DNA of 38,505 nucleotides from assembly GCA_017520845.1 (NCBI GenBank), contig JAFXEU010000105.1, forward strand, positions 1-38,505, in the 5' to 3' direction. Below, piece by piece: positions 1-6,826 of this stretch (position 1 is its first letter; each line of letters begins with the position of its first letter). Below the pieces are notes generated by a model. That model made no database searches. It saw only the letters and a program-made list of their open reading frames with translations, and had not been told where the DNA came from. Origin of the DNA: Kiritimatiellia bacterium (lineage in GTDB: Bacteria > Verrucomicrobiota > Kiritimatiellia > RFP12 > UBA1067). The position numbers were made by a program, and so were the translations under genes.

Positions 1-210
1 AGCGTTCGAAAGATGTCTTCCGGCGCCACATTCGGTATTAGCCATCGTTTCCAATGGTTTTCCCCAACTCAAGGACAGGTTGCTCACGTGTTCCTCCCCA
101 ATCCGCCACTCTCACACCTAAGTATTGCTACCTCGGTGATCCCGTTCGACTTGCATGCCTAATCCACGCTGCCAGCGTTCGTTCTGAGCCAGAATCAAAC
201 TCTCAGAAAA
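1..210 (-). rRNA. rrs: 16S ribosomal RNA, 5' part (runs off the left edge)
   Basis: Read on the minus strand, positions 203-184 are the universal bacterial 16S start site (the 27F primer region). This is followed by the conserved helices for GAACGCTGGC and GCATGCAAGTCGAACG. Only about the first 200 nt of the gene are inside the window; the rest lies to the left. The mature 5' end is placed near 210 by analogy with E. coli, where the primer site begins at base 8, so it is uncertain by a few bases. The start AACGAACGCTGGCAGCGTGG is of the PVC (Verrucomicrobiota/Kiritimatiellota) type, which is the main basis for the taxonomic guess. I see no tRNA or 23S in the window. Confidence 0.95.
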
Positions 211-3922: not shown

Positions 3923-4242
3923 CCGCCCCTTGAGGGTGGTCGCGACCCATAGGGAAGCGACCAAGCCGAGCGACCGCGAGGCCGAGTGGGAGTGGGAGAG
4001 TGGAAAGTTAGATTCTTTGCGCGTTGCTTATATGCGCTAACGCGCGGCCACGAAAGTTGTGAACGCGGCAAATCGCTAACGCGATTAACGACTCGCCAAT
4101 ACGCTATTGAGTTTGACGCTTGTCGCGTCACTCAAAGCGCATCAGCTCGTCTAAAGCCTACGGCTTTTGCCGCGCTCACAAACACAAAAGCCCACTTTCG
4201 TGGGACACAAAAACGCCTCCTTCGGAGGCTACACGAAAAGCA
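3923..4242 (+). repeat. Hairpin-array repeat, copy L (plus orientation)
   Basis: This gene-free stretch is a chain of short perfect stems. They include 3923-3939 (6 bp), 3938-3962 (outer GGTCGC/GCGACC, inner CCC-ATA-GGG), GCGCGTT/AACGCGC (4020-4046 region), AATCGC/GCGATT (4072-4085 region), GACGC/GCGTC flanked by GAGT/ACTC (4109-4133 region), AAAGCC-TAC-GGCTTT (4153-4167), CCCAC-TTTC-GTGGG (4191-4204) and GCCTCC-TTC-GGAGGC (4215-4229). Several are capped by UNCG-type loops (cUUCGg, cUACGg) when read as plus-strand RNA. From 3991 (AGTGGGAGAGTGGA) to 4242 it matches, in inverted orientation, the stretch 6684-6394. I see no credible protein here. A structured RNA or a MITE/REP-like element is the best reading. 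Confidence 0.6.
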
Positions 4243-4492
4243 CAACACTAGAGACAGTGAGTACATTCTGTCGAAGAATGAAAATGAATTTACGAGATAT
4301 AAAGTTTAGGTGAAGTTAAAAGGTGAAGGTGAACAATGGATATTTATCCTTTGCGCTAGGATTAATCTGTGACAATCTTATGCCCTTCCTCTTACAATCT
4401 ACTTCGTAAGGCTATGATGGGTTAAGTTGATACGCATCATTAACGTCGTTCACCGCGTCAATCCAAGACGATTGGAATTGCCGTGAAAGTGT
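4243..4492. other. Gene-free spacer with no recognisable feature
   Basis: A/T-rich spacer between the hairpin array and the twin palindromes. Its reading frames are short and lack convincing starts or family resemblance. I saw no tRNA, terminator or repeat. Confidence 0.5.
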
Positions 4493-4533
4493 AAAAGTGG
4501 CACAACAAGGTCAGACCTGTTTGTGCCACTTTT
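4493..4533. repeat. REP-like palindrome, copy 1
   Basis: AAAAGTGGCACAA and TTGTGCCACTTTT form a perfect 13-bp stem around an inner AAGGTC-A-GACCT stem. The core TGGCACAA...TTGTGCCA (4498-4528, 31 bp) recurs at 4588 with one base change. The inner GGTCAGACC is reminiscent of REP palindromes tied to RAYT (Y1) transposases, but no RAYT gene is in the window. Confidence 0.7.
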
Positions 4534-4559
4534 ATATATTGATGTTTTTAGCGTATAAT
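4531..4559 (+). promoter_or_regulatory. Candidate promoter upstream of the IS110 ncRNA and transposase
   Basis: TTTATA (4531-4536), a 17-nt spacer and TATAAT (4554-4559) read towards the structured segment and the transposase. The -10 is perfect and the -35 matches 4 of 6. It overlaps the end of palindrome copy 1, so the palindrome could act as an operator. Whether it lies inside or outside the mobile element is unknown. Confidence 0.4.
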
Positions 4560-4587
4560 GAACTAATAAAAGAAATTACTGCCAAAA

Positions 4588-4618
4588 TGGCACAACAAGG
4601 TCAGACCTATTTGTGCCA
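4588..4618. repeat. REP-like palindrome, copy 2
   Basis: This is the same 31-bp core as at 4498-4528, differing at one base (A for G), exactly 90 bp downstream. Outside the core the stem does not continue, unlike copy 1. Confidence 0.7.
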
Positions 4619-4713
4619 AAATTGACAAACTTCGCAGATTGTACAAGGTCTGTCTCGTGTTGTTGGTAATATATTGCGTGTTCCTAACAAATAGGACGAT
4701 TCGGGGTTGAAGT

Positions 4714-4923
4714 CTGTCACGTACTGGAGTATGATACGGAACAGCAGGTGCCGGTAACATCTGCTGTGCGCATGGGAGACGCTCGAGAAAATGCATGAGT
4801 TAAGTCGAAAGACCCACACTCGCGATGTTGTTTGAGCGCCGGCGGAAACCACCTGCTTGGGGCGAAAGACCCCGGATATTTGTGTGCAACCTTGCAGCAA
4901 CCGCCTGCTCCAGTACGTGACAG
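4714..4923 (+). ncRNA. Candidate IS110 bridge RNA
   Basis: IS110-group elements encode a bridge RNA in the non-coding end upstream of the transposase. Exactly there, CTGTCACGTACTGGAG (4714-4729) is perfectly complementary to 4908-4923. The resulting 16-bp stem extends to 18 bp with one G-U pair and closes a 210-nt segment. Inside are a 10-bp stem-loop (4741-4767, loop CCGGTAA), a GTC-GAAA-GAC mini-hairpin (4804-4813), a GGGG/CCCC hairpin (4859-4873), a GGCGG/CCGCC pairing (4841-4845 with 4901-4905) and an 8-nt complement (4743-4750 with 4850-4857) that could give an alternative fold. The structure is seen in the sequence and the role is inferred from position and family. Guide loops for target and donor cannot be assigned without knowing the element ends. 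Confidence 0.55.
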
Positions 4924-4942
4924 CAAATTAAAGGGTAGCAAA

Positions 4943-6190
4943 ATGAACGACGACAATCAAGTGAAAGTCGAAACATACGCGCAATACGTAGTCGGAATGG
5001 ACGCTCATTCAAAGAAGCTCGCCATATCTATATGGGAATGCTCGGATCTCTGGAAGCCTATGCTTTATAAGGAGATTCGTTGCTGTGCTATAACTGATAT
5101 GGAGGCTACTTATCAACATAATGTTCCTAAAGACTCTATCACGATTATAGAGTCATCGACAAACTCCGCAACGTTGAAAAAACGGCTTGAGGATATCGGG
5201 TTCAGGGCTGGTATCGTCAGAGCGGATATCATCAGTGATAAAGAACGCAAACGGAAGGTTCGCGATATTCAGGATGCTCGCAACCTTGCAAAGGCGTATA
5301 TCAAAGGAAATATCCAAGAGTTTATTTGGGTGCCATCAGATCAGTATGCGGATTATCGAGATGTTCATTTTGCACATCGTGATACAGTCAAGGAAATGAC
5401 ACGCACATCAAATCGGATTTGGAGCATTTGCAGTAGAAAAGGATATAATCTTCCAATTCGTTCCGGCACGACTAAAGGCGAATCCATACGAAAAATGGTA
5501 GAGCAACTTCAAATATCGGGCTTCATTAAGGAACGCTTGGAAATGCTTGTTGCCGATTATGAATTCTTTCTGAAGAGGAAAGAGAAACTCGAAAAGCTTA
5601 TGGCTGAGGCAATAATAGAAAATGATAAAATGCTTGCGTTAATGCAATTGCCGGGCTTCTATTATCATGCCGCGTTTGTAATCGCCGCGATTGTGGAGGA
5701 TGCGAGACGATTTTCGAGTGCAGCAAAACTGACCGCCTATGCGGGGCTGTCGCCAATGATCAATACTAGCGGGGAAGAAGAACAAAAAGCGATACTTAAA
5801 GGAGGCCCTGGAAAGCCCCTTGACGGTGAAGGTAGGATGGATCTAAAATTCTACTGTTGTGAAGCGGGGCAGACCATTCTTAATTTATGCAGCAAAAGCG
5901 ATATTGGCAAATGGGGGTGGCGCATGATTAATAAAGGCAAACCGAAAAACAAAGTTTGCTGTGCCATTGGGCGTAAACTTATTACATACGCATGGCATAT
6001 TCTTCGAGGAGACTCTACCCCAAACCGTGAAGGAGAGGGCGTATTCAAACGAAAGATGTTTAGATTTTATAGCGAATTAGGCAAGCAGAGAATGACTGAA
6101 CTTGGATATCCGAGACGTGCTGATTTCTCAAATGCAATGAGCACTCGGTTTTACGGACATTTACCAGAAAGCATAAAATCAAAAGAATGA
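4943..6190 (+). CDS. IS110-family transposase (DEDD recombinase)
   Basis: The N-terminal RuvC-like DEDD domain begins at VVGMDAHSKKLAIS (first Asp), with Glu in TIIESSTNSATL and the Asp pair in KVRDIQDARNLAKAY. A helical, coiled middle leads to the C-terminal Transposase_20 domain (LPGFYYHAAF..., AKLTAYAGLSPMINTSGEEE), whose Ser-Gly is the place of the catalytic serine in this family. At 415 residues the length is normal for the family. The start at 4943 is chosen because AAAGGG lies 9-14 nt upstream and earlier in-frame codons would run through the structured segment. After the serine it has GGPGKPLDGEG instead of the more usual K.GN..LR pattern. The frame is intact, so it is probably functional together with the upstream RNA. 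Confidence 0.92.
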   Translation: MNDDNQVKVETYAQYVVGMDAHSKKLAISIWECSDLWKPMLYKEIRCCAITDMEATYQHNVPKDSITIIESSTNSATLKKRLEDIGFRAGIVRADIISDKERKRKVRDIQDARNLAKAYIKGNIQEFIWVPSDQYADYRDVHFAHRDTVKEMTRTSNRIWSICSRKGYNLPIRSGTTKGESIRKMVEQLQISGFIKERLEMLVADYEFFLKRKEKLEKLMAEAIIENDKMLALMQLPGFYYHAAFVIAAIVEDARRFSSAAKLTAYAGLSPMINTSGEEEQKAILKGGPGKPLDGEGRMDLKFYCCEAGQTILNLCSKSDIGKWGWRMINKGKPKNKVCCAIGRKLITYAWHILRGDSTPNREGEGVFKRKMFRFYSELGKQRMTELGYPRRADFSNAMSTRFYGHLPESIKSKE

Positions 6191-6200
6191 TTTGAGCATC

Positions 6201-6268
6201 GCGGCGACCCATCCTAATACAGCAGGGCGTTCCTGAAGCGCCCTGCTGCCGGATGGGCACCCCGCCGC
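6201..6268. repeat. Large three-tier hairpin directly after the transposase
   Basis: Eleven bases after the transposase stop, three nested perfect stems line up: GCGGCG (6201-6206) with CGCCGC (6263-6268), CCCATCC (6208-6214) with GGATGGG (6251-6257), and CAGCAGGGCG (6220-6229) with CGCCCTGCTG (6239-6248). That is 23 paired positions with a 9-nt loop. There is no T-run, so it is not a standard intrinsic terminator. It could be the right-end structure of the IS or the palindromic target it landed in. Confidence 0.75.
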
Positions 6269-6393
6269 AAATATTATATCCAAAATCATTTTAACAAATA
6301 ATGGCATTAGTTATTACTAGTGCTGGCTTTGCATTTTCTTTTTCCTTCTACCAAAAGAAAGTTTTTTTATTTTCCCTATTGACGCAATACATA

Positions 6394-6684
6394 TTTGCTT
6401 TTTCGTGTAAGTCTCCGAAGGAGACGCTTTCGTGTCCCGTAGGGCTTTGGTGTCTGAGGTATCTGACGCGACCGAAGGTCGTGACGGCGCAACGATGCGC
6501 GGCGAAGGTTTTTCTAAGAACTGCAAAATAAAAGCAATTAGAAAGCAATAGACCTTCAAGCCAGCGCAGAGTTGCGGCGGCAAACGCGGCGATTAGCCGC
6601 ACGGCAGATACACCAGTTTTCGTGTACCGCGGCGAACGCCGCCATTAAGCAACGCGCTGAATCTACCAATTCCACTCTCCCACT
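6394..6684 (-). repeat. Hairpin-array repeat, copy R (minus orientation)
   Basis: Read on the minus strand from 6684 it starts AGTGGGAGAGTGGA and continues with GTAGATTC...GCGCGTTGCTTA, parallel to copy L. It ends with the pair of hairpins CCC-TAC-GGG (6444-6436) and GTCTCC-TTC-GGAGAC (6425-6411) set in the same flanks as in L (CAC.AAAGCCC, GGGACAC.AAA.CG, ACACGAAAA.GCA). Other stems are GCGGCG-TT-CGCCGC (6642-6629), GCGCA-TCGT-TGCGC (6500-6487) and GACC-TTC-GGTC (6480-6470). The middle is more diverged than the two ends. The last hairpin differs from L by a compensatory pair change. The spacers on either side (6269-6393 and 6685-6826) show nothing else. Confidence 0.6.
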
Positions 6685-6826
6685 AATCAGGCGGCGACAC
6701 GAACGAGACGATGCAGAGCAATAAGCAGGGAAACGGGGAATGGTAGTCGATGTTTTATTATCCGATAATCAACCCGTTGCAAGCGCAGAACGCTTCCGTT
6801 TTTTAATTTCATTATAATTTATTTTT

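Follow-up and report, generated by a model that had tools for sequence, protein, structure and literature searches.

The window analysed here is a 38,505-nucleotide stretch of DNA that comprises one whole contig (JAFXEU010000105.1) of the 2.74-Mb draft genome of a Kiritimatiellia bacterium (assembly GCA_017520845.1). Two stretches within it, L (3991-4242, plus strand) and R (6684-6394, minus strand), were found to be diverged copies of one structured arm in opposite orientation, and they are the two inward-facing ends of a single element into which an IS110-family element jumped. Such arms occur in pairs and have a conserved fold, a gene for a GxxExxY protein lies between them in some relatives, deletion derivatives exist, and whole units have moved and had their cores inverted. 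From these results it is probable that L and R are the arms of a mobile DNA element whose full-length relatives carry GxxExxY between the arms, that the window holds a gene-less copy later split by IS110, and that the nuclease acts on ends folded as single-stranded DNA (ssDNA). The gene-bearing relatives, with GxxExxY between folded ends, point to an undescribed class of mobile element.

Two inward-facing arms of one element

An earlier, sequence-only reading had described L and R as an inverted pair of diverged hairpin arrays flanking an IS110 element, and inspection of the sequence agreed with it on the coordinates and motifs of the two stretches. Their relationship was also borne out. When L was compared with its own genome by BLAST, R was returned in two blocks on the minus strand, 6646-6684 (85%, E = 2.5e-4) and 6400-6456 (79%, E = 1.1e-5), and R was recovered by a covariance model, R1, that was trained on 11 arms with arm R left out and whose E-values are rough (Table 1). 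L also matched dispersed copies on contigs C90, C68, C39 and others of the same genome, so that the element is a multi-copy one.

On C68 and C39 an inverted array pair surrounds a core of 250-300 bp without IS110, and the window's matches to the uninterrupted C90 and C68 copies break off at ~4663 and start again at ~6395. The possibility that the arrays are part of IS110 was ruled out, since the IS110 boundaries fall between the core and arm R and since arms without IS110 are present on C68 and C39. Insertion of IS110 exactly at the core/arm-R junction, together with the uninterrupted pairs on C68 and C39, shows that its position between L and R is not due to chance; the arrays do flank IS110, but it is IS110 that lies inside one element whose ends are L and R. 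The ends of the window core, CAACACTRGAGA..CTGTCGAAG and CTTCGCAGATTGTACAAGGTCTGTCTCGTGTTG, are imperfect inverted copies.

Two details of the earlier description needed revision. The start AGTGGGAGAGTGGA..GCGCGTTGCTTA is indeed common to L and R, but it belongs to a separate outer module and not to the arm, and the two hairpins reported at the end of each copy, although present, make up no more than the inner portion of a larger fold with several branches.

Fold, covariation and spread of the arms

The arms are multibranched, 180-290 nt in size, and follow a common order: an outer hairpin, a CACGAAA linker, a long stem (P1) around several hairpin branches, and two terminal hairpins parted by ACACRAAAR linkers. 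The compensatory stem changes that had been noticed between L and R were present as described, with GCCTCC-TTC-GGAGGC in one arm and GTCTCC-TTC-GGAGAC in the other at the last hairpin, and CCCAC-TTTC-GTGGG against CCC-TAC-GGG at the previous one. Across the 11 aligned arms, double changes were observed in 21 of the 44 consensus pairs, compared with a mean of 12.7 in shuffled alignments, none of 500 of which reached 21; this control is independent of how the structure was derived but is inflated by related rows. Pairing was seen in 94.3% of alignment cells, compared with 83% in the shuffles. When the structure was slid along the alignment the number of double-change pairs dropped to 1-3, a control that favours the structure, which was derived from the same alignment. 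The long stem P1 covaries too, its strands being ~120 bases apart.

The search with R1 covered 58 related genomes, among them four ruminant-gut Kiritimatiellae that are congeneric with the window's genome (G000): RUG10640 (G029), RUG673 (G034), RGIG9840 (G025) and RGIG9427 (G001). A covariance-model search of the same and related genomes had been proposed, and it did reveal further copies: 106 arms were found on 78 contigs of 19 genomes, belonging to the genus and to two other genera of the order. Neighbouring arms within 3 kb of each other faced inward (+,-) in 23 of 26 pairs (p = 1.6e-11). Rfam matched only 16S rRNA in the window, and ten further loci were without a match at E 0.5.

Template switching toward perfect palindromes is a general property of quasi-palindromes. 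The compensatory pattern could accordingly be mutational, with imperfect palindromes being repeatedly perfected and double changes arising without selection on folding; slipped hairpin registers, and wholesale hairpin differences at the same place between arm copies, are what such a process would leave. This explanation appears improbable. Topology is fixed, linkers are invariant and loop type is biased across the 106 arms from several genera, P1 covaries despite the distance between its strands, and the wobble pairs described below are strand-asymmetric.

Arms have also changed by insertion. A separate hairpin module of ~75-90 nt lies inside an outer-hairpin loop in RUG10640, where RUG673 has the empty loop GCGCTAACGCGC, and C39 and C68 carry it within an arm-hairpin loop. 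Insertion of a hairpin module into hairpin loops is thus one visible mode of arm growth.

Two other repeats were noted. Many genomes of the genus contain a dispersed hairpin module of ~88 nt (GCCTGCGACGAAGTCGTCAGG..GAGCTTTCGCGGAGCGAAAGTCGCAAGAG), to which the module in the RUG10640 loop is related; it sits in the loops of other hairpins (locus L003, 2030-2100; L068, 1920-2000, with homologues across the genus). A larger structured-looking repeat (GCGGCCACGG..GGATTGTAGCCGTAAGAGAG..GTTACAACTCCGTAGCGAGTCGAGAYCGAG) recurs in the window's genome and in RGIG9427 (L061, L062, L064, L007 and L005), without an Rfam match.

Folding as DNA or as RNA

The UNCG loops of the hairpins had been taken as a sign of selection at the RNA level, a claim that the analysis did not support. 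Extraordinarily stable mini-hairpins of DNA have a GNA loop, with GNNA as a second kind (PMC4686876). A c(TNC)g loop on one strand is a c(GNA)g loop on the other, and therefore the loop motif alone cannot separate RNA from DNA folding. Among 274 distinct hairpins, the outward strand had GNA in 55 of 107 three-base loops and GNNA in 22 of 80 four-base loops; on the inward strand the counts were 2 and 1, and dinucleotide shuffles gave 4.3 and 3.1. Read on the inward strand, only 5 of the 22 GNNA loops correspond to the RNA loop UMAC, and the GNNA loops seen most often are not GNRA. The UNCG rule for RNA accounts poorly for the enriched c(TNNC)g loops, which are GNNA on the other strand.

Single mismatches in stems defined by Watson-Crick pairs only were 9 G-T and 25 A-C on the inward strand (p = 0.009), so that the wobble-tolerant strand would be the outward one; with 34 mismatches from related arms, this result is suggestive. 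The outward GNA and GNNA loops, the outward wobbles and the inward-facing symmetry that DNA ends require together favour folding as ssDNA, and it is likely that the arms fold on the outward DNA strand.

A structured non-coding RNA (ncRNA) on the inward strand, with UNCG loops, would be consistent with the strong covariation, with the c(TNCG)g loops and with minimum free energies of about -100 kcal/mol for each stretch (-101.5 kcal/mol for L). We regard it as quite improbable. In inward-facing pairs one arm would be antisense in any read-through transcript, the c(TNNC)g loops are enriched, the wobbles are outward and most of the GNNA loops fall outside the GNRA class; furthermore, there is no matching Rfam family, and copies move and occupy unrelated contexts. 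The loop and wobble comparison is a simple way to tell DNA from RNA folding, and it carries the caution that intergenic hairpins can covary strongly without being ncRNA. The arms offer a natural system in which a branched ssDNA structure, rather than an RNA, is seemingly kept by compensatory change.

Repetitive extragenic palindromic (REP) sequences and bacterial interspersed mosaic elements (BIMEs), moved by a REP-associated tyrosine transposase (RAYT, TnpA-REP), resemble the arms in being intergenic DNA hairpins, in inverted pairs, with likely single-strand recognition, and Y1 transposase genes are present in the window's genome. The arms being REP elements of this kind is nonetheless very improbable indeed: they are multibranched structures of 180-290 nt and not hairpins of 20-40 nt, the gene between them encodes GxxExxY, and the Y1 gene on C45 has a short palindrome of its own, GGGGGACTGTCCCC, on its flanks in place of these arms. 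REP/BIME elements were rejected as the identity of the arms on size, topology and protein. The choice between ncRNA, MITE (miniature inverted-repeat transposable element) and REP-type element that the sequence-only reading had left open thus moves away from ncRNA and REP, toward a mobile DNA element that, where it bears a gene, encodes GxxExxY.

A GxxExxY gene between the arms of related copies

GxxExxY genes were sought with PF13366 and TIGR04256 in 34 genomes of the genus. Such a gene lies inside an inward-facing arm pair at G029:C1, G029:C6 and G025:C120, where the chance expectation in that core length is 0.004 genes; at G001:C96, which is among the exceptions, it lies between two arms of the same orientation. 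When 84,980 named genomes were scanned with a narrow GxxExxY clade as seed, arms on both sides of the gene were found at the Kiritimatiellae loci of this clade with model-found arms and in Verrucomicrobia UBA1731. In RUG10640 the first 31 codons of GxxExxY survive in two gene-less pairs that share an identical internal deletion, the pattern to be expected if a deletion derivative had later spread.

The GxxExxY proteins match the TIGR04256 profile (E = 1e-32 to 2e-39). In the clade, E31, D71, E81, K83 and Q95 are invariant, and QxxxY is present in the nine-sequence set. An AlphaFold model (mean per-residue confidence, pLDDT, 94; predicted template-modelling score, pTM, 0.87) had its best fold match in the Cas4 protein SSO0001 of Sulfolobus (Z = 10.1, 100 residues, 4.4 A), followed by a mixture of restriction-fold nucleases, Holliday resolvases and lambda-type exonucleases; a sequence-only search of solved structures gave no meaningful match. 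GxxExxY is accordingly predicted to be a small RecB/Cas4-like PD-(D/E)XK nuclease. It shares the fold and the E..D..ExK..QxxxY residues of Cas4/RecB-like exonucleases and differs from them in being only ~126 amino acids long and in being encoded between inverted arrays. A Cas4-like nuclease would suit single-stranded or branched DNA ends, although a shared fold is no proof of function.

The sole GxxExxY gene of the window's own genome (C45, 110700-111017; L088) is surrounded by several copies of another array (TTTATAAACTCCGATGGTTGTTC..), and a copy of outer module B is close by.

Inverted unit arrays in other clades and phyla

In other clades of the genus the GxxExxY genes have, on their flanks, inverted arrays whose units measure 9-10 bp (ACAGGATTA, CGCAGAGAA, ACACGGAAT and others), and 22 of the 27 GxxExxY loci of the genus exceeded the 95th percentile of mismatched-flank controls; the value of one of the 22, L086, is inflated by N runs. 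In Planctomycetota, Chloroflexota, Flavobacterium, Patescibacteria, KSB1 and others, genes of the clade found in Kiritimatiellae arms are flanked by inverted CRCKAAT arrays (CACGAATT, CACTAAT, CGCTAAT) with a ~10-bp unit. The flank test was weaker outside Kiritimatiellae (19 of 38 above control), partly because the CRCKAAT unit recurs in the controls. Around this clade outside Kiritimatiellae, 164 CRCKAA units faced inward and 69 outward, compared with 8 and 10 around other clades of the genus. Across phyla, protein similarity was correlated with flank similarity (Mantel 0.22, against a maximum of 0.14 over 1000 permutations and 0.14 for the opposite orientation).

The ACACGAAR linker between the hairpins of the window matches the CRCKAAT unit, which gives the hairpin arm the look of a unit array with hairpins set into it. 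We tentatively suggest, as a possibility short of an even chance, that GxxExxY proteins serve as nucleases for a class of mobile DNA element that has gone unrecognised in many phyla, that each clade recognises its own ~10-base unit in inverted end arrays, and that in ruminant-gut Kiritimatiellae these arrays grew into multibranched ssDNA structures as hairpins were inserted between units and in the loops of hairpins. On the narrower and probable reading of L and R given at the outset, each arm would fold as ssDNA of the outward strand, as branched GNA/GNNA mini-hairpins spaced by ~10-base CRCKAA units; the GxxExxY nuclease would recognise the folded, unit-studded end and cut or process it, with the element being mobilised or homed as a result. 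GxxExxY supplied in trans could mobilise gene-less copies such as that of the window.

Genes of the genus for PF05635 four-helix-bundle proteins (23S rRNA intervening-sequence proteins; L108-L137) also lie in inverted arrays, of ~6-8 bp units (GGGAACA, GGTAGTT, AGAGTTG, AGGGATG), and 20 of 22 such loci exceeded the 95% control. These arrays resemble the short tandemly repeated repetitive (STRR) heptamers of cyanobacteria.

Mobility and its agent

A 1,065-bp copy on C39 is absent from the orthologous RGIG9840 site, where the flanks are 93% identical, and is bordered by a 9-bp target duplication (TTGCTCAAC / TTGCTCAGC). Two gene-less copies in RUG10640 and RUG673 have 9-bp duplications, GCGGGAGAG and GCGAYTCTG; gene-less copies in these genomes have GTGCAACGAG..TTATG ends, with duplications in 2 of 4 testable cases. 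A gene-bearing element is 96% identical over ~1,030 bp between RGIG2266 and RUG14632, while 2.7 kb on either flank is without similarity. At an orthologous locus the core has opposite orientations in RUG10640 and RUG673, the breakpoints of the inversion falling at the ACACGAAT linkers, and a second core inversion was seen between loci L188 and L190; draft assemblies could mislead on inversions, though the two cases agree. At the former locus the flanks are 84-88%, the arms 99-100% and the core 97% identical, and arms more alike than the genes around them are compatible with recent transfer to one and the same site, with gene conversion and with constraint.

The arms might instead be passengers, with gene-less and gene-bearing copies being MITE-type units moved by a conventional transposase that acts in trans on outer inverted repeats, and with GxxExxY as cargo. 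The inverted repeat CTGGAATATCCCCA of the C39 copy, with its target duplication and empty site, and the ends and duplications of the RUG10640 and RUG673 gene-less copies are in keeping with such a history. On balance we think it unlikely: gene-bearing copies lack these outer repeats yet occur at unrelated sites, the same arms are enclosed by two unrelated outer repeats, no transposase gene was recognised beside the outer repeats, and both the conserved arm folding and the cross-phylum association of protein with unit are left unexplained. No autonomous transposase was recognised between or beside the CTGGAATATCCCCA repeats, where most copies run into contig ends, as many element copies do in these draft assemblies.

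Several observations weigh against an element mobilised by GxxExxY. The C39 copy, the one with an empty site, is bounded by an ordinary short inverted repeat and 9-bp duplications, which suggests an unseen transposase acting in trans, and for the gene-bearing copies, in which this repeat is absent, no target duplication was found. In the window copy no target duplication, short terminal repeat or empty site was seen, and no GxxExxY remnant was detected in its core by tblastn, so that it is a gene-less relative by its arms alone. The PF05635 loci indicate that inverted short-unit arrays do not need a nuclease, and the wobble result, as stated above, is suggestive. An orthologous site of the window locus was not found in close genomes, where nothing matched beyond fragments of repeats and a single weak coding match.

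The history may plausibly have had two layers: parts of a GxxExxY array element would have been captured in ordinary short-inverted-repeat transposons (CTGGAATATCCCCA in the window's genome; GTGCAACGAG in RUG10640 and RUG673) and would have spread along with them. At L188 and L189, CGTGTAGA-type arrays lie outside the outer hairpin, as they do around GxxExxY at L099; those on the two sides of L188 are in direct orientation, a hint that one array element is nested within another.

Relation to known systems

MITEs and foldback (FB-type) elements are likewise small gene-less mobile units with long inverted ends of sub-repeats and, for some copies, target duplications. The ends described here differ in being multibranched hairpin arrays kept by compensatory change, and the gene-bearing relatives encode a Cas4-like nuclease and not a transposase. 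Internal deletion from a gene-bearing element, as in a MITE, was found for two RUG10640 copies; the combination of short terminal inverted repeats, target duplication and multiple copies was seen for C39 and for two RUG10640/RUG673 copies but not for the window or gene-bearing copies. The intervening sequences (IVSs) of 23S rRNA share the arrangement of a small open reading frame (ORF) within inverted ends, and four-helix genes of the genus also lie in inverted short-unit arrays. An IVS was rejected as the identity of the window element, which is intergenic in a window where Rfam finds no 23S rRNA; the protein family encoded by gene-bearing relatives is also a different one, and the ends are hairpin arrays.

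The description of the element as new was upheld, in that it has no Rfam match and the family was not found in the open-licence full-text literature searched. In one paper of that literature GxxExxY is no more than the label of a cas4-like gene; the name also occurs in a paper on an algal virus genome, and PF13366 in one paper. Two papers on heptamer repeats (PMC4679880, PMC4853749) discuss regulation or MITEs, and the terms searched in them did not turn up these proteins. GxxExxY/PDDEXK_3 is a common protein family of unknown function; the element suggests a role for it and accounts for the position of its genes among inverted short repeats in many phyla.

Other features of the window

Table 1. 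Features of the element and its surroundings in the window (C, contigs of the window's genome; R1, covariance model of the arm).
Feature	Position	Strand	Evidence or relation
Outer repeat module A (CCGCCCCTTGAGGGTGGTCGCGACC...GGCCGAG), hairpin-rich	3923..3985	+	Separate dispersed repeat abutting the element; copies in C115, C71, C17, C67, 85-94% identity
Outer module B, left (AGTGGGAGAGTGGA..TTAGATTC..GCGCGTTGCTTA)	3991..4030	+	Common to R side (6646-6684) and to C90, C12, C45
Arm L, multibranched hairpin array	4031..4240	+	R1 166.8 bits (training member); alignment, covariation
Arm L, h0	4034-4045	+	
Arm L, long stem P1	~4056-4072 with 4167-4185	+	Branches inside
Arm L, terminal hairpin d	4191-4204	+	ACACRAAAR linkers between terminal hairpins
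Arm L, terminal hairpin e	4215-4229	+	
Gene-less element core	4241..4663	+	Aligns with cores of C68, C39 and RGIG9427
IS110-family element	~4664..6394	+	Later insertion at core/arm-R junction; single copy in genome
IS110 transposase gene	4943..6190	+	Pfam PF02371 E 3.6e-9, PF01548 E 4.6e-4
Arm R, same multibranched array reversed	6399..6644	-	R1 85.7 bits, E 4.2e-21 (rough), outside training set
Arm R, hairpin e	6411-6425	-	
Arm R, hairpin d	6437-6445	-	
Outer module B, right	6646..6684	-	85% to 3991-4030; 97% to C12 and 94% to C45 copies

Just left of IS110, the window core holds two copies of a strong 15-21-bp palindrome (TGGCACAACAAGGTC/GACCTGTTTGTGCCA) at 4492-4534 and 4588-4618. In the noncoding end of IS110 (4664-4942), a perfect 16-bp inverted repeat, CTGTCACGTACTGGAG, pairs 4714-4729 with 4908-4923 and likely encloses a structured RNA, a bridge-RNA candidate by position. 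To the right of arm R, 6685-6737 is a fragment that matches the end of a small ORF (..GGDTNETMQS); this ORF also adjoins module B in C12 and in loci of RGIG9427 and RGIG9840, which suggests a recurrent insertion neighbourhood. The contig starts within a 16S rRNA gene (1-210, minus strand) and was thus broken at an rRNA operon.

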